From: Pseudomonadota bacterium
Lineage (GTDB): Bacteria > Pseudomonadota > Alphaproteobacteria > SP197
Length of the DNA stretch: 64,000 bases
Assembly (NCBI GenBank): GCA_039028155.1
Contig: JBCCIS010000011.1
Coordinates: 1 to 64,000 of the forward strand
Direction of reading: 5' to 3'
Under the pieces are notes generated by a model, which was given only the letters and a program-made list of their open reading frames with translations, did not search any database and had not been told where the DNA came from. Numbering within the stretch: the stretch's first letter is position 1; each line of letters opens with the position of its first letter. Made by a program: the position numbers and the translations under genes. Shown here piece after piece: positions 42,583 through 50,248 of the stretch.

Positions 42583-44163
42583 ATGCTTCACTTCCCCGCC
42601 TGGAAGATTACCGTCGTCGCTGTCGTTTGCGCGCTCGGCATACTCTTTGCGCTGCCCAATCTGTTGCCCAAAGACAGTCTGGACGGACTGCCGGACTGGC
42701 TGCCCCATAAGCAGATCAGCCTGGGTCTCGACCTAAGGGGCGGTTCCTATGTTCTCCTGGAGGTCGAAAGCGAGACGATCCTGGAAGAGTGGCAGGAATC
42801 GATCGAGGGCGACTTCCGCGCGATACTGCGGGACGAACGCATTGGCGTGCGCTCACAAGGCTGGGGCAATCAGCAACTGGTCATGATGCTGCGCGAGGCA
42901 GCCGATCTGGAGGCGGCCCGTTTGGCGGTGCAGGGTTATGACGACGATCTCGTGGTCGATTTCGAGGACGACGGCACCATTGCGGTCGCGTTGACCGAGC
43001 AGGGCATCAACGAACGCATCAGCAACGCCACCGAACAGGCCATCGAGATTCTGACACGCCGCCTCAACGAGTTCGGCGTCAGCGAGCCGATCATCCAGCG
43101 CCAGGGGCTGGACCGGATCATCATCCAGCTGCCGGGCATCAGCGATTCCAGCATCATCGATCCGGACACGGTCGCCAAGCTGACCTTCCGCATGCTCGAC
43201 AACGAGACGCCGCTCAACCAGGCACTGGCGGGCGATATCCCGGCGGGCTCCGAGCTCTTGAAAGAACACCGTACCCCTGAGCAGATTGCGGCTGGGGTAC
43301 CGGATCAATACTACGTCGTGCGCAAGCGGGTCATGGTCAGCGGCGAGCACCTGACCGACGCGCAGCCATCGTTCGAGCAGGGCCGCCCGGTTGTTTCCTT
43401 CCGCTTCGATAGCGCCGGCGGCCGACGTTTCTGCGACACGACAACGGAGAACGTCGGCCTGCCGATGGCGATCGTGCTGGATGACGAAGTCATCAGCGCG
43501 CCGCGGATCAACGGCCCGATCTGCCAGGGGGCCGGCGTCATCACCGGTAACTTCTCGCCCGAAGAGACCAACGATCTCGCGGTCCTGCTGCGCGCGGGCG
43601 CCTTGCCGGCGCCACTGTTGATCCTGGAAGAGCGCACGGTCGGCCCCAACATGGGCGCCGATCAGGTGCGCGCCGGCGAGATGGCCGCTGTCATCGGTCT
43701 GGTCGCTGTCATCGTCTTCATGGTGTTGAGCTATGGCCTGTTCGGCATATTCGCCAACGTGGCGCTGGTCGCGAACATCATTCTGATCGGCGGGGCACTC
43801 TCTACCTTGCAGGCGACGCTGACACTGCCTGGCATTGCCGGCATCGTCTTGACTATCGGTATGGCGGTGGACGCCAACGTGCTTATCTTCGAGCGAATAC
43901 GCGAGGAGATCGCTAATGGGCGAACGCCCTTCAACGCGGTCGATGCGGGCTACAAGCGCGCGCTGACGACGATTATTGACGCCAATGTCACCACGTTTAT
44001 CGCCGCGGCTTTGCTCTACACCCTGGGCGACGGGCCCATCAAAGGATTCGGCGTGACGCTCGCGATCGGCATTCTGACATCGCTCTTCACGTCGATCATG
44101 GTGACCCGCCTGTTCGCCGTTCTGTGGCTGCGACGCCGCCGGCCGCAGGCGCTGCCGCTTTAG
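42583..44163 (+). CDS. secD: Protein translocase subunit SecD
   Basis: A 526-residue RND-type protein. Helix 1 is in KITVVAVVCALGILFALPNL; the large periplasmic P1 domain begins LGLDLRGGSYVLLEV. The C-terminal six-helix region includes GMAVDANVLIFERIREE, the conserved proton-path motif in helix 4. SecDF uses the proton-motive force to pull preproteins across the membrane. secF follows after 9 nt. Confidence 0.96.
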   Translation: MLHFPAWKITVVAVVCALGILFALPNLLPKDSLDGLPDWLPHKQISLGLDLRGGSYVLLEVESETILEEWQESIEGDFRAILRDERIGVRSQGWGNQQLVMMLREAADLEAARLAVQGYDDDLVVDFEDDGTIAVALTEQGINERISNATEQAIEILTRRLNEFGVSEPIIQRQGLDRIIIQLPGISDSSIIDPDTVAKLTFRMLDNETPLNQALAGDIPAGSELLKEHRTPEQIAAGVPDQYYVVRKRVMVSGEHLTDAQPSFEQGRPVVSFRFDSAGGRRFCDTTTENVGLPMAIVLDDEVISAPRINGPICQGAGVITGNFSPEETNDLAVLLRAGALPAPLLILEERTVGPNMGADQVRAGEMAAVIGLVAVIVFMVLSYGLFGIFANVALVANIILIGGALSTLQATLTLPGIAGIVLTIGMAVDANVLIFERIREEIANGRTPFNAVDAGYKRALTTIIDANVTTFIAAALLYTLGDGPIKGFGVTLAIGILTSLFTSIMVTRLFAVLWLRRRRPQALPL

Positions 44164-44172
44164 GACGATGCC

Positions 44173-45141
44173 ATGAAACCGCTCCGCCTCGTCCCAAAAA
44201 ACACCCACGTGCCGTTCATGCGCTGGCGCAACCCGGCGATCGGCCTGTCGGCGCTGGGCATTGTGGCCTCGATCGTTCTGTTCCTGGTCATGGGCCTCAA
44301 CTTCGGCATCGATTTTCGCGGTGGCACCTTGGTCGAGGTGCGCACCGAAGGCCCGGCCGATATCGAAGGCATGCGCAATGCGCTGAACGCGCTGGAGTTG
44401 GGCGAGGTGTCGCTGCAGGAATTCGGCCAGGATACGGACGTTCTGATCCGGATCCAGCGCCAGGATGGGGATGAAGCGGCCCAGCAGGCGGCAGTCCAGA
44501 TCGTGCGCGACGTCTTGGACACCGATTTCGGGCCCGTGGACTACCGGCGTATCGAGTTCGTCGGACCCCAGGTCAGCGACGAACTGATCGAAAAGGGCAT
44601 CATGGCCGTCCTGATCGCGCTGGGCGCGATGCTGATCTATATCTGGCTCAGGTTCGAGTGGCAGTTCTCTCTGGGCGCCGTCATCGCGCTGCTGCACGAT
44701 GTCATCTTGACCATCGGGCTCTTTTCACTCACCCAGCTCGACTTCGGCCTGCCCATCGTGGCCGCGCTTTTGACCATCGTCGGCTATTCGATGAATGACA
44801 CGGTCGTCATCTATGACCGCGTGCGCGAAAACCTGCGCAAATACAAGAAGCTGCCGTTGGTCGATTTGCTCGACAAGTCGCTGAACGACACCCTGTCACG
44901 TACCATTATGACCAGCGGCACCACGCTGTTGGCGCTTTTCGCCCTCTATTTCTTCGGCGGCGAGGTGATCGCCGGCTTCACGCTGGCGATGATCTGGGGC
45001 GTCATCATCGGTACCTATTCCTCGGTTTTTGTCGCCGCGCCGCTGCTGCTCTATCTGCGGCCCGGCCGGCGCGTATTCGACAGAGACGAGGACAAGGCCG
45101 AAGACGGCGAAGAGGACGCATCCGCGGACGCCACGCCCTAG
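44173..45141 (+). CDS. secF: Protein translocase subunit SecF
   Basis: A 322-residue partner of SecD. It has GLNFGIDFRGGTLVEV at the start of the periplasmic domain, the helix-4 motif VGYSMNDTVVIYDRVREN, and an acidic C-terminal tail. Length and order are standard. Confidence 0.96.
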   Translation: MKPLRLVPKNTHVPFMRWRNPAIGLSALGIVASIVLFLVMGLNFGIDFRGGTLVEVRTEGPADIEGMRNALNALELGEVSLQEFGQDTDVLIRIQRQDGDEAAQQAAVQIVRDVLDTDFGPVDYRRIEFVGPQVSDELIEKGIMAVLIALGAMLIYIWLRFEWQFSLGAVIALLHDVILTIGLFSLTQLDFGLPIVAALLTIVGYSMNDTVVIYDRVRENLRKYKKLPLVDLLDKSLNDTLSRTIMTSGTTLLALFALYFFGGEVIAGFTLAMIWGVIIGTYSSVFVAAPLLLYLRPGRRVFDRDEDKAEDGEEDASADATP

Positions 45142-45145
45142 ATCG

Positions 45146-45523
45146 ATGCGGGATATGACGCCGGATCCCGAACGCAGCCCAAAGCTGGTGCAAGGTTATG
45201 GTGACGGCGGGTTTCGGATTTCGGGCCAGCGCTATGAAGGATCCCTGATCGTTCTGCCGTCCATCGTCCATGCCTGGCCGATTGGCTCGATCAGCGAGGT
45301 GACGGCGGAAAGCCTGATCCAGGTCAGCGAAGCTGATGATCCCATCGACATCCTGTTGATCGGAAGCGGGCACGGGGTGCCCCGGATCGACGAGGCCGTG
45401 CGCAACGTGCTGCGACCGCGCGGCATTGTCACCGATGTCATGGATACGGGTGCTGCCTGCCGAACCTTCAACCTGCTGGTCGCCGACGCGCGCCGCGTCG
45501 CGGCAGCCATGATCGCGGTCTAG
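45146..45523 (+). CDS. Mth938-like (NDUFAF3 homologue) family protein
   Basis: A 125-residue protein of the Mth938/Xcc1710 family, whose mitochondrial homologue NDUFAF3 assists complex I assembly. Characteristic segments are IQGYGDGGFRISG-like VQGYGDGGFRISG, DILLIGSGHGVP and MDTGAACRTFNLLVADARRVAAAMIAV. The exact bacterial function is unknown. Start is either ATG 45146 or 45155; neither has a strong ribosome site. It is 4 nt after secF, a common place for it in alphaproteobacteria. Confidence 0.87.
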   Translation: MRDMTPDPERSPKLVQGYGDGGFRISGQRYEGSLIVLPSIVHAWPIGSISEVTAESLIQVSEADDPIDILLIGSGHGVPRIDEAVRNVLRPRGIVTDVMDTGAACRTFNLLVADARRVAAAMIAV

Positions 45524-45532
45524 CCAAAATAA

Positions 45533-45556
45533 GAGCGGGACCCGAAGGCCCCGCTC
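45533..45556. terminator. Bidirectional terminator-like hairpin
   Basis: GAGCGGG (45533-45539) pairs with CCCGCTC within 45550-45556, and sits between convergent genes. On the minus strand it is followed by TTATTTT, so it mainly serves the PuuD-like gene; on the plus strand only CTTAG follows. Confidence 0.65.
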
Positions 45557-45583
45557 CTTAGACAAAACGTTGCTCGTCAGAGA

Positions 45584-46090
45584 TCACCACCACACATTTT
45601 GACCCGAAACCATGCAGAACAGCATGGGGATCGAGAGCATGGTGTTGGTCCGCGAGAACAGCATGGCTGTTCGGGCGGACTTCGCTTTCGTGTCAGCATC
45701 CGCCTCGACGATGCCTAGCGCCCGCTTCTGATTGGGCCAGATCACGAACCAAACGTTGAACCACATGATCGTACCCAGCCACATGCCGATACCGATCGGC
45801 GTGCTGGACCCTTGGTCAGTGATGCCAACAGCGATGGCGTCGACCAAGTAGCCATTTAACCAGGCCAAGATCAGACCGGTCACGATCGTCGCCATGGCAC
45901 CCCAACGGAACCAGAACAGGGCCGCAGGCGCGATCACTTTGCCGATCGCCGGCTTTTGCTCGTCCGGAATCTTCGGCATGTTCGGGATCTGTACGAAGTT
46001 GAAGTACCACAACAGACCGATCCACATGACGCCGCTCAGGACGTGCAGGTAGCGGAACAAGAACATCCAGAAGCCATACAAGTCGTCCAT
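45584..46090 (-). CDS. Urate hydroxylase PuuD-type membrane protein
   Basis: A 168-residue polytopic protein related to the membrane domain of PuuD (Pfam PF06181). It has about four hydrophobic helices: LHVLSGVMWIGLLWYFNF, FWFRWGAMATIVTGLILAW, GIGMWLGTIMWFNVWFVIW, and NTMLSIPMLFCMV. His17 in RYLHVLSG and nearby Arg/Trp residues may bind haem. Full PuuD has a cytochrome c domain; this copy is shorter and lacks a CXXCH motif, so urate oxidation is not assured. A 30-residue microprotein lies 26 nt upstream. Confidence 0.82.
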   Translation of the reverse strand: MDDLYGFWMFLFRYLHVLSGVMWIGLLWYFNFVQIPNMPKIPDEQKPAIGKVIAPAALFWFRWGAMATIVTGLILAWLNGYLVDAIAVGITDQGSSTPIGIGMWLGTIMWFNVWFVIWPNQKRALGIVEADADTKAKSARTAMLFSRTNTMLSIPMLFCMVSGQNVWW

Positions 46091-46116
46091 GTTTACCCCT
46101 CAATCTGCCGGGCGCG

Positions 46117-46209
46117 TCAACCGACCGCGAGAATGATGATGGCGACGATGATCGTAAGAACAACGCCGGCAGTCACCGTTGCGGGTAAAGACTGAAGAAT
46201 TTTCGCCAT
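46117..46209 (-). CDS. 30-residue single-pass membrane microprotein
   Basis: This small frame on the minus strand starts ATG 46209 and ends TGA 46117. The peptide begins MAKILQSLPATVTAG and continues with an unbroken hydrophobic stretch (VVLTIIVAIIILAVG), enough for one membrane helix with a basic cytoplasmic N-terminus. The ribosome site GGTGGGGGTTAACCA directly precedes the ATG. It is only 26 nt upstream of the PuuD-like membrane gene and behind a perfect 15-nt dyad, so it looks like a real leading gene of that operon. I know no family for it. Confidence 0.62.
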   Translation of the reverse strand: MAKILQSLPATVTAGVVLTIIVAIIILAVG

Positions 46210-46245
46210 TGGTTAACCCCCACCACATCTAGATGGTTTTCCATA

Positions 46246-46260
46246 GTGAACGCCGTTCAC
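46246..46260. promoter_or_regulatory. Operator-like perfect dyad upstream of the microprotein gene
   Basis: GTGAACG-C-CGTTCAC is a 7-1-7 perfect palindrome, 37 nt before the microprotein ATG. The form resembles TetR-family operators. It overlaps a CACTAT that could be a -10 element on the minus strand. Confidence 0.5.
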
Positions 46261-46436
46261 CGCTATCAGTTGTAGCTGTTCGCTTTGCCCCTTTAGCGCT
46301 CGACCGGCGCTGATTTCCGACGAGCACCCAGTGTCGTCGGTCGTGTTCACGGGTGCCATTTAAGAGCCAGAAGGCGCGTCGTGTCTAGATTGAGAAGTAA
46401 ATTCTTTCTAATTCACTCCCAACAAACGGACCTGGC

Positions 46437-47648
46437 TTAACCGGCCAGAGCCAGCTGCGCGGCCCGATTACCAGAGCGAATTGCGCCTTCGATGGACGCC
46501 GGCAGACCAGTGTCGGTCCAGTCGCCAGCGACGAAAAGGTTGGCGAGCGACGTCGCGGACGGCGGACGTCGGCGCTCGTTGGCGCAGGTTTGGGCAAAGG
46601 TGGCGCGCTTCTCTTTCACGATTCGAAAAAGGGGTAGGGGTTGGTCGCCCAGGTCCAAGGCCTGGGTGATGTCGCGCCACAGGATCGCGGCGATGGCATG
46701 GTTGTCCTGGGCCGCCAGATCATTGGCGGCGCTGACCGTGGCGGAAACGATCCCTTCGCGCCAAAAGAGCCATTGCGCGGTCGCGCCGACCAGGCCCATG
46801 GCACCGGGCCGGCCGTCTGCTTCGCCGACCTCCTTGACCAGGAAGTGTCCGTTGACGATCGCATTGTCGCCCTGAGGCGTCGTGAGGTCGGGAATGAGAT
46901 CGCCGGCTGCTTTCGGGCCCGTGGCGACGATGACCGCGTCACCGTCGGTGAGCCTCAGGGATTGGTCGCCCAGGGACAGCATGGTCGTTCTGCCCTGTTC
47001 GATTGTGAGGCCAACAACCCGTTGGCCGAACGCCGTGCGCGCGCCGCGTTGCACCAGTCTGGCGAGTGCCGGGTCGACGAAACTCTCGCTCAGTCCATCG
47101 CGCGCCATATGCATCTGAAGGCCACGGCGGCCATGGCGGAGGATCTCGGTCAGCGTCTGACGCAGCATGCGGGCGGATGCCTGCTGGGGTGGTGTGTTGA
47201 GGATGGCGTACGTCATCGGCGCCCAGAAACGACGCATCAAAAGTCCGGATCCAAGCGCCTGGGCGACCGTGCGGTCCGTGCCGGGGAGAAACAGACTGAG
47301 CGCGCGCAGGAATTGCCACGGTCTGACGCCGGGCATGGAGCGTCCGGCCTCATAGGACCACCGTTCGCCGGTTTCCAGATCGGTAAAGCGATAACCGTCG
47401 AGGTCCAAGCGCATGACCGTCTCCCGCGCGCCTATGGCCTCGAGGTAGGCAAACGCGGCGGGGTTGGCGCCTAGCAGCACATGGCTGCCGTTATCAATCC
47501 GACGTCCCAAGGTGGCGTCGTCAAGCGACCGGCAGCGCCCGCCGGCTTGGGGAGTGGCCTCGATCAAGGTCACGCCAGCGCCTGCCTGGGCGGCGGTCAA
47601 GGCCGCCGCGAGCCCGGACACGCCCGCGCCAATGACGTAAACCGTCAC
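46437..47648 (-). CDS. hpnE: Hydroxysqualene dehydroxylase HpnE
   Basis: A 403-residue FAD-dependent amine-oxidase-fold protein. The N-terminal fingerprint is VIGAGVSGLAAALTAAQAG (residues 5-23) and the C-terminal FAD motif LFVAGDWTDTGLPASIEGAI. In the HpnCDE route HpnE reduces hydroxysqualene to squalene. It forms a tight operon with hpnD and hpnC, sharing a 4-nt ATGA overlap with hpnD. A phytoene-desaturase-like role is conceivable, but the operon argues for HpnE. Confidence 0.92.
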   Translation of the reverse strand: MTVYVIGAGVSGLAAALTAAQAGAGVTLIEATPQAGGRCRSLDDATLGRRIDNGSHVLLGANPAAFAYLEAIGARETVMRLDLDGYRFTDLETGERWSYEAGRSMPGVRPWQFLRALSLFLPGTDRTVAQALGSGLLMRRFWAPMTYAILNTPPQQASARMLRQTLTEILRHGRRGLQMHMARDGLSESFVDPALARLVQRGARTAFGQRVVGLTIEQGRTTMLSLGDQSLRLTDGDAVIVATGPKAAGDLIPDLTTPQGDNAIVNGHFLVKEVGEADGRPGAMGLVGATAQWLFWREGIVSATVSAANDLAAQDNHAIAAILWRDITQALDLGDQPLPLFRIVKEKRATFAQTCANERRRPPSATSLANLFVAGDWTDTGLPASIEGAIRSGNRAAQLALAG

Positions 47649-48508
47649 AACAGCCCGTGATAGACGCCAATGGCGAGCTTTTCCGCAGCCGACAAGCGGG
47701 CCTTGTCACCGGTCTGCGGCCAGCCGCGCCGCTCCATTTTGCGCAGCAGTCGGCGATAGCTCACCATCATCACGACAGCAGGGCGGACCGCGCGGCGGTC
47801 GCATGCCGCCAGGGCATCGTCGGCTTGCTTGAAATAGCCATCGGCCGCCGCCGCCATGGTGCGGCAGACATCGCCCAGCGCGGGATCGTTCATGATCGTC
47901 TCGGGCGACAACGCCTCGATGCCCGCGTCGCGCAGCCACTCGTCGGGCAGGTAGACCCTGCCGTCAGCCGCGTCCTCACGCAGGTCTCTCAGGATGTTGG
48001 TGAACTGGAGCGCGCGGCCCAGCGAGCGGGCGAGCATCTCGCCGGCATGGCCTGTGGCACCGAAGATGGCGACCGACAACAGCCCGACGGCACCGGCAAC
48101 GCGATCACAGTAAAGCTCCAGTTCGGCGAGGCTCGGACGGACGACGGGGCCGTTGGCATCGGTCGCGACTCCGTCGATAACGGCCAGCAGATCATCGCGT
48201 TGAATAGGAAAGTCTTGGCGGACATCGTTGAGAGTCCGGCCAAGAGATGTCGTTGGCGCGTTGTCGTAAACAGCGTTCACCTCCCGGCGCCATGCCGCAA
48301 GGCCTTGTTGTTTCTCGGTTTCGGGCGCCGGCTCGTCGGCAATGTCGTCGAGTTCCCGGCAATAGGCATAGACCGCGAACATGGCACGGCGCTTGGCGAC
48401 GGGGAGCAAACGCATCGCCCAATAGAAGGAGCTCTTTGATCCCTGCACCAGGCGTTCGACATGGGCCCAGCTGTCGGCCTCGCCAAGGCTGTTGGTTGCT
48501 TGGGTCAT
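47645..48508 (-). CDS. hpnD: Presqualene diphosphate synthase HpnD
   Basis: A 287-residue squalene/phytoene synthase-family enzyme that condenses two farnesyl diphosphates to presqualene diphosphate. Both Asp-rich motifs are intact: YAYCRELDDIADE and ILRDLREDAADGRVYLP. Start ATG 48508 shares ATGA with the hpnC stop. The much longer open frame upstream lies antisense-free inside hpnC and is not coding. Confidence 0.93.
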   Translation of the reverse strand: MTQATNSLGEADSWAHVERLVQGSKSSFYWAMRLLPVAKRRAMFAVYAYCRELDDIADEPAPETEKQQGLAAWRREVNAVYDNAPTTSLGRTLNDVRQDFPIQRDDLLAVIDGVATDANGPVVRPSLAELELYCDRVAGAVGLLSVAIFGATGHAGEMLARSLGRALQFTNILRDLREDAADGRVYLPDEWLRDAGIEALSPETIMNDPALGDVCRTMAAAADGYFKQADDALAACDRRAVRPAVVMMVSYRRLLRKMERRGWPQTGDKARLSAAEKLAIGVYHGLL

Positions 48509-49341
48509 CGCTGCCGCAAGCCCCGAAGCAAACCGCGGGCAAGGCAGACGGCGCGCTCGGACTTCGTGAGCGCGATGCGGTGCGCCAGAGGGTCGCCGCG
48601 CCTCAATCGGTTTCTTAGCCGGCAGGCGATCGCATGGATGACCGCCGCGTCGTAGCGCAGACGGCTGTGCCCGAGCAGGCCCGAGAGCGGCGTTGCCTGG
48701 GCCAGCAGGACATCGACGCCGTCCAGGCAACGGTCGAGCACCTTGCGCAGAGCAGGGCTCGCCCGATCGCTTTCCAGATCCTCGACCGACGCCCCTTCGG
48801 CGGCCAGCCAATCGGTCGGGATATAGACGCGGTCGATGCGCCGGCGGTCGTCGCCGCAGTCCTGGAGATGGTTCAGCACCTGAAGCGCGGCGCAAAGGGC
48901 GTCCGACGCCGGGTAGGCGGCGGCATCCTCGCCGGTCGTGTCGATCAAAAACCTGCCCACCGGCGCCGCCGAATAGCGACAGTAGAGCATCAGGTCGCTC
49001 CAGGTCCGGCAGCGTGGGTTCTCCGCGTCCCGGCGGAACGCCTGCAGCACGTGGCGCGCGTACTGATCGGTGACACCGGTCTGCGCCAGGCTCTCAACCA
49101 GCTGGGCGGCGGCTTGCTCTGGCCCGTCGGCCGGCTCCGCGCCATCCAGGACGGCCAGCATGCGATCCAGGCGGGTGCATTTCTCGACGTCCGTGCCGCC
49201 AGTGCCGTCGGCGATATCGTCGGCGGCCCGCGCGAAACGGTAGAACGCCATCACGTGCGGCCGGCTTTCCTTGGGCAAAAGCCAGGAAGCGACTGGGAAA
49301 TTCTCCGATGTGTGGTCGCGGGACGGCGCTTGAACCTCCAT
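48505..49341 (-). CDS. hpnC: Hydroxysqualene synthase HpnC
   Basis: A 278-residue squalene/phytoene synthase-family enzyme that converts presqualene diphosphate to hydroxysqualene. It carries ENFPVASWLLP, YRFARAADDIADGTG and the modified second motif LQDCGDDRRRIDRVYIP typical of HpnC. Start is uncertain: ATG 49341 gives the usual short N-terminus; ATG 49374 and an upstream GTG or ATG are alternatives. It is first in the operon and its 5' end is within about 56 nt of the divergent NDUFAF6-like gene. Confidence 0.9.
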   Translation of the reverse strand: MEVQAPSRDHTSENFPVASWLLPKESRPHVMAFYRFARAADDIADGTGGTDVEKCTRLDRMLAVLDGAEPADGPEQAAAQLVESLAQTGVTDQYARHVLQAFRRDAENPRCRTWSDLMLYCRYSAAPVGRFLIDTTGEDAAAYPASDALCAALQVLNHLQDCGDDRRRIDRVYIPTDWLAAEGASVEDLESDRASPALRKVLDRCLDGVDVLLAQATPLSGLLGHSRLRYDAAVIHAIACRLRNRLRRGDPLAHRIALTKSERAVCLARGLLRGLRQR

Positions 49342-49396
49342 GATCGTGCCACAATGTGCGGACGGAGCAGTCATTCCATTCGGGTCTGGGGGCAAA

Positions 49397-50248
49397 GTGG
49401 GCCGCGCTGACGCCAATCTGTCGGCATGTGCGGTCGCGGTCAAACGCTATGACCGCGACCGTTGGTTCTGCGCGCTTTTTGCGCCGCCCGACCGGCGCGA
49501 GGACCTGTTGGCCATTTACGCCTTCAACACCGAGCTCGCGGCGGTCCAGGACAAGGTCTCCGAGCCGATGTTGGGCGAGATCCGCCTGCAATGGTGGCGC
49601 GAGGCGGTCGACGGGCTCTATGGCGGCACGACGCGGCGCCACGACGTGGTGGCAGCACTCGCGCCGGCGATCGACCGTCACGATCTCGACCGGGCGCTGT
49701 TTGACGGGCTGATTGACGCCCGCGGGGCCGACCTGGAAACAATCCAGCCTGAGACCCTTGCGTCGCTGGAGACCTATGCGCGGCGCACCGCTTCCCCGGT
49801 CGTGGCGCTGGCGCTCGGTGTGCTCGGCATCAAAGCCAGTAATCTTCGCGCCGTGGCGGACGCCGCCGGTACGGCCCAGGCGCTAACCGGTCTGCTGCGC
49901 GCGACGCCGCACCTGCTGGCCGCCAATCGCATCCTGCTACCGTCCGACACCATGCTTAAACACGGTTTGAGCGAGCGCGACCTCAGATCAGGCAAGAACA
50001 GCCCGGCACTTGCGGCGACGGTCGAGGCCGTCGCGGACTTGGCGGATGAGCACATAGGACAGGCCCGCTCATTGTCGCGGGAACTGCCTGGCACGGCCGT
50101 TCCTGCGCTGTTGCCGGTCACGTTGGCGACCATCGACCTCGCCCGATTACGCCGGCTGGGCCACGACGTCTTCAATCCCAGAGTTGCTGAACGCGGGGCC
50201 GGGCGCATGCTTAAGGCGGCGCTCCACGCTATGACGAGGCGGATCTAG
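49397..50248 (+). CDS. Squalene/phytoene-synthase-fold protein, NDUFAF6-like
   Basis: A 283-residue member of the squalene/phytoene synthase superfamily. The first Asp-rich motif is lost (IYAFNTELAAVQDKV) and the second is not recognisable (LLAANRILLPSD), while the structure signature LGEIRLQWWREAVDGLYGG remains. That pattern matches the NDUFAF6 group, complex I assembly factors in mitochondria. It is probably not a prenyl synthase. Start GTG 49397 is chosen because GGGGGCAAA precedes it; ATG 49340 would overlap hpnC. trmFO ends 6 nt after its stop, convergently. Confidence 0.82.
   Translation: MGRADANLSACAVAVKRYDRDRWFCALFAPPDRREDLLAIYAFNTELAAVQDKVSEPMLGEIRLQWWREAVDGLYGGTTRRHDVVAALAPAIDRHDLDRALFDGLIDARGADLETIQPETLASLETYARRTASPVVALALGVLGIKASNLRAVADAAGTAQALTGLLRATPHLLAANRILLPSDTMLKHGLSERDLRSGKNSPALAATVEAVADLADEHIGQARSLSRELPGTAVPALLPVTLATIDLARLRRLGHDVFNPRVAERGAGRMLKAALHAMTRRI

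Follow-up and report, generated by a model that had tools for sequence, protein, structure and literature searches.

Subunit IIa (CbaD/CoxIIa) of the B-type ba3 oxidases of Thermus and Aquifex is a single-helix subunit of 34-41 residues (PMC3128077). This subunit stands in space for the helix that is fused to subunit II in other enzymes and is absent when subunit II has two helices, and either gene fission or gene fusion has been proposed (PMC3128077). The urate oxidase PuuD, a member of the DUF989 family, has a membrane domain of eight helices, with the N-terminus proposed to lie outside (N-out; PMC4562309). Short DUF989 proteins lack cytochrome c, have four helices and occur in gene contexts that differ from that of puuD (PMC4562309). 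The main text of PMC4562309 notes these short proteins and does not mention an N-terminal helix or its separation.

The window (the whole 64,000-nucleotide stretch of DNA that was analysed) encodes a short PuuD-like protein directly preceded by a membrane microprotein. The features of this pair are as follows.

46117-46209, minus strand: microprotein gene (ATG...TGA), 30 aa, MAKILQSLPATVTAGVVLTIIVAIIILAVG (open reading frame; homology to the fused N-terminal helix)
46217-46224, minus strand: microprotein ribosome site, GGTGGGGG (sequence; surrounding 30 nt identical in the sister species)
46091-46116, minus strand: intercistronic gap of 26 nt (sequence; comparison with fused relatives)
46096-46101, minus strand: second ribosome site, GAGGGG, inside the 26-nt gap (sequence)
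45584-46090, minus strand: PuuD-like (short PF06181/DUF989) membrane protein, 168 aa, with a four-helix core (PF06181 match; AlphaFold model)

A 30-aa frame with a strong ribosome site and one membrane helix, 26 nt from a PuuD-like gene, had been predicted from the sequence, and all of these elements are found on the minus strand at the positions above. The predicted product, MAKILQSLPATVTAGVVLTIIVAIIILAVG, is a single, strongly hydrophobic helix. The microprotein matches no family in Pfam or NCBIfam, and an Rfam scan of the region gives no match of note. Searches of the literature on DUF989 or a split PuuD N-terminal helix returned only PMC4562309, PMC3597751 and the oxidase precedent, and none of the literature searched describes this microprotein.

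The nearest precedent for the microprotein appears to be subunit IIa of the ba3 oxidases. In both cases a separate one-helix ORF lies directly upstream of its partner, and the equivalent helix is fused in relatives. The two systems differ in several respects. No sequence similarity to the fused helix is seen for subunit IIa, which has the opposite polarity, whereas homology is plain here; split and fused states alternate within one protein family here, unlike in the oxidases; and association is proven for subunit IIa, whereas it is a prediction for the microprotein. Cytochrome b, compared with cytochrome b6 plus subunit IV, likewise shows a membrane protein whose gene is cut between helices to give two neighbouring genes (PMC3128077), but both of those halves are multi-helix, whereas a single helix is detached here.

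The PuuD-like core protein

The 168-aa protein resembles PuuD (PMC4562309) in matching PF06181 (Urate_ox_N) above the gathering score (E-value: 5.7e-17, 62.5 bits, cutoff 26.9; strongest at residues 99-163). When this chain is modelled alone, AlphaFold gives a core of four long helices (pLDDT 92.9; residues 4-40, 46-79, 97-124 and 132-164), which match helices I, II, V and VI in the published description of the core of short DUF989 proteins (PMC4562309). The partial PF06181 match, the four core helices and the missing cytochrome c agree with the description of that group. Unlike PuuD, the protein has neither a cytochrome c domain nor a CXXCH motif (the chain ends after the fourth helix), has four rather than eight core helices and lies outside any purine-catabolism context. 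The N-terminal helix of the window family is an extra element, as full-length PuuD has no such helix. The full-length PuuD homologues in the locus set (L241-L250) are open frames of 395-490 residues.

L240 and L270 represent a separate short PF06181 subfamily that lacks the helix and shares about 38-39% identity with the window protein. Both helix-less and helix-bearing short PF06181 proteins occur in one genome (G031), on different contigs.

The original prediction pointed to a small extra subunit of a membrane enzyme that contains haem, with an operator-like dyad upstream. In keeping with this, full-length PuuD has a cytochrome c domain (PMC4562309), and the VIA-align matches of the core are four-helix bundles that include cytochrome b6 and superoxide oxidase (Z 10-12). 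However, structural matches with Z under about 13 are common for helical bundles, the helix appears to be ancestral to the protein rather than added, and the core lacks a cytochrome domain. Haem binding is unsupported because only a single histidine (His16) is invariant in the PuuD-like family, and we regard the haem-subunit explanation as very unlikely. A PDB search by sequence gave no relative, and a Foldseek search with the fused model described below gave no match at E below 1.

Fused and split forms of the N-terminal helix

The helix is present in all 234 helix-family loci: in about 179 it is fused in frame to the core and in 55 it is a separate ORF just upstream. This set is enriched for short open frames and comprises 213 distinct domains, some loci being near-duplicates; the ratio of fused to split loci is therefore not a population frequency. 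Assignment by script gave 176 fused, 56 split and 2 unassigned loci. The two unassigned loci (L211 and L217) have a divergent helix and were counted as fused by eye. In one further locus (L129, from a SAR11 single-cell contig), an artefactual frameshift separates helix from core and imitates a split; this locus was also counted as fused. Of the separate ORFs, 53 are 26-34 residues in length and two have longer tails.

The fused state is found in most relatives, both in Alphaproteobacteria and in other classes. In L016, for example, the helix is the in-frame N-terminus, MGSILQNLQSTIIAGVVLTVVMIAVVVGWHGQGLELDTNWWSFLFRWLHV. For a fused relative that shares 87% identity with the window protein, the AlphaFold model (mean pLDDT 91) has a high-confidence helix 1 at residues 8-29, followed by the four core helices. 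The 26-nt gap in the window stands in place of the loop codons of such relatives, and the loop is periplasmic by predicted topology. Judged by this homology, the microprotein is the PuuD-like protein's own N-terminal membrane helix in detached form and not an extra accessory protein. Readthrough or frameshifting was considered as a way of joining the two frames; the small frame is out of register with the PuuD-like start in 39 of the 55 split copies, and this therefore cannot be a general mechanism.

Split copies occur in about 16 GTDB families and represent several lineages of the Alphaproteobacteria. A split copy assigned to a further family label (f123) is discounted as probable contamination because it is identical to a copy from f4. 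Many of the genomes are metagenome bins, and L129 is a true case of a spurious split, so that the divided state might be thought to arise from sequencing or assembly frameshifts or from a decaying gene. However, the split recurs across these families, near-complete genomes included (G007: 2 contigs, 100% complete), and the split copies have ATG starts, ribosome sites and signs of purifying selection. The artefact explanation is refuted by the conservation of the split frame and can be given practically no weight.

The conservation of the small frame was followed in related genomes. The PuuD-like protein is matched in 34 of the 61 genomes searched. Absence of the frame from close relatives had been named as evidence against a gene; instead, both parts are present in 15 of 16 genomes of the window's GTDB family, always at the PuuD-like locus, and the sixteenth has neither. 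One member of this family (G004) has the fused state. No further copy of the microprotein was found elsewhere in the family genomes. A ratio of non-synonymous to synonymous change near one had likewise been expected of a spurious frame, and the values again favour a gene: for the small frame, pooled pN/pS is 0.23-0.30 in five of the six families tested, among them the window's GTDB family at 0.29, and 0.52 in the sixth (f113); the microprotein compared with that of the sister species gives 0.23. The start codon is ATG in 55/55 split copies, and a Shine-Dalgarno-like core precedes it in 51/55 (the remaining four belong to one AT-rich family). On this record of conservation, the 30-residue frame is a real gene under purifying selection.

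The short gap and the strong ribosome sites in nearly all split copies would also suit a leader peptide, that is, a frame that loads ribosomes for the downstream gene or regulates it by translational coupling, with no structural role for the peptide. This explanation is hard to reconcile with pN/pS well under 1, with amino acids conserved on one helical face and with the residue-by-residue match to the fused helix; moreover, a leader would not occur elsewhere fused in frame to the mature protein. There is little chance that it is correct.

The split and fused helices are conserved in the same way. Column conservation is correlated between the two sets (Spearman 0.75, p = 1e-5), and L5, L8, T11, G15 and L18 are conserved in split and fused copies alike. 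Conserved positions fall on a single helical face, at 332 degrees in the split set and 310 degrees in the fused set (p = 0.009 and 0.044, respectively). The best line of covariation between helix and core is a parallel contact with the last helix, as the topology predicts, at a score (6.4) that shuffles also reach (5.1 +/- 0.85, maximum 7.2). Because the same residues and the same face are conserved in both states, the microprotein most likely remains bound to the PuuD-like core as a single-helix subunit. The small-subunit role proposed at the outset is retained as the best reading and is tied to the PuuD-like gene; the subunit, however, is the protein's own N-terminal helix, which is fused in most relatives.

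E6, S7 and T19 are under tighter constraint in split than in fused copies, and in two genomes of GTDB family f81 (L140 and L174) the split microproteins, of 90 and 73 aa, carry a polar Ala/Thr-rich tail of 40-60 residues after the helix. Both features could be taken to mean that the separated helix has acquired a new partner or an independent role as a free regulatory microprotein. We consider this improbable, as the frame is always directly upstream of the PuuD-like gene, the conserved face is unchanged and the family genomes hold no copy at another site.

Proposed fission and reassembly of the two chains

Homologues from other classes of the phylum are fused (mostly 48-57% identical), and the fused form is therefore likely to be the ancestral state of the helix-bearing family, which would make the microprotein a product of gene fission. 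Outside this family, full-length PuuD and the helix-less paralogue (L240 and L270) have no N-terminal helix.

Our model for the split lineages runs as follows. The ancestral gene would have been split in the loop that joins helices 1 and 2; an N-out core, as proposed for PuuD (PMC4562309), would place this loop in the periplasm. Where loop codons once stood there would now be a stop codon, followed by a ribosome site and then a new start. Both pieces should be able to insert alone, one as a short N-in helix and the other as a core beginning N-out. The two chains would be translated from adjacent ribosome sites, probably on one message, which would keep their amounts matched, and would reassemble in the membrane with the microprotein acting as a single-helix subunit. 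We infer that both chains are translated, that their genes are co-transcribed and that the chains associate physically. It is very likely that the PuuD-like protein is a five-helix membrane protein of which helix 1, following fission, is made as a separate 30-residue chain and serves as a subunit of the core.

The number of fissions was estimated from gene trees. A 213-row tree requires 11 changes of state, compared with 45 when labels are shuffled, and a more careful 67-row tree requires 10, with a range of 9-13 in 1000 bootstraps. A topology with every split row in a single clade is rejected (AU p = 0.0245). When branches with support under 80 are collapsed, 8 changes are still needed; under 90, only 2 are. 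Support for single events is uneven because the protein is short. From these trees we claim at least two independent fissions and regard eight or more as likely; re-fusion in single lineages, such as L173, is possible. Four fused loci (L173, L188, L196 and L215) have a helix that begins like the KNPLESL type common in split lineages, and these are candidates for either re-fusion or the state just before fission.

We lean towards the view that the helix toggles repeatedly between a fused domain and a free microprotein of 26-34 residues (about 8-11 changes), forming a natural series of microprotein birth by fission in which the freed helix gains Ala-rich tails or new constraint in some lineages. 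For most bacterial microproteins neither origin nor partner is traceable, whereas both can be read from the sequence here. The dozens of fused relatives are a built-in control, by which binding partner, interface and topology become predictable. A search for N-terminal helices that some relatives carry in fused form and others lack may offer a route to similar overlooked genes, and in split lineages the 168-residue gene model would represent an incomplete protein.

Upstream region and gene neighbourhood

Three further elements lie upstream of the pair.

46246-46260, no strand: perfect dyad GTGAACG-C-CGTTCAC, 36 nt upstream of the microprotein start (sequence; possible operator)
46379-46415, minus strand: block of 37 nt identical in the sister species, TGAATTAGAAAGAATTTACTTCTCAATCTAGACACGA (G000/G001 alignment; possible promoter region)
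46431-46449, minus strand: terminator-like hairpin at the hpnE end (match to a consensus only; chance alone would give 1.2 in the region)

The dyad is present and perfect, as the original prediction had it. The genus has only one other genome, which retains the dyad in full inside a 20-nt identical block; the dyad is absent from the remaining members of the window's GTDB family. The 64-kb window contains 14 perfect 7-bp dyads with a 1-nt spacer (49 over spacers of 0-4). Pattern searches of the genome gave one other perfect copy, which lies between two convergent genes, and three copies with one mismatch, all inside coding genes. With its other copies between converging gene ends or inside coding genes, the dyad was rejected as a regulon marker. 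RNA folding gives nothing beyond chance (z -0.44). The dyad may be an operator, but that reading is weak given how common such dyads are in the window, the lack of an evident regulon and the absence from the rest of the family.

The 37-nt block is identical in the sister species though its surroundings have diverged, and no sigma-70 consensus was found within it (46379-46415). The terminator-like hairpin at the end of hpnE suggests that the microprotein/PuuD-like pair is transcribed on its own.

In the window, the plus strand next to the pair carries secD, secF and a DUF498 gene, and hpnE, hpnD and hpnC lie upstream on the minus strand. Over 109 loci, the recurrent neighbours are SecD/SecF (about 74), DUF498 (58) and a squalene/phytoene-synthase-like gene (about 70); purine-catabolism genes are not among them. 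DUF498 presumably resembles NDUFAF3 and the SQS_PSY-like gene (PF00494) NDUFAF6, both of them mitochondrial complex I assembly factors. These neighbours therefore hint at a role for the PuuD-like family in membrane-complex assembly, which we offer as a lead. The region from 42583 to 50248 of the window is a recurrent alphaproteobacterial neighbourhood, with secD-secF-DUF498 on one side and the squalene/phytoene-synthase-like gene (PF00494) on the other, into which hpnCDE is inserted in the window.
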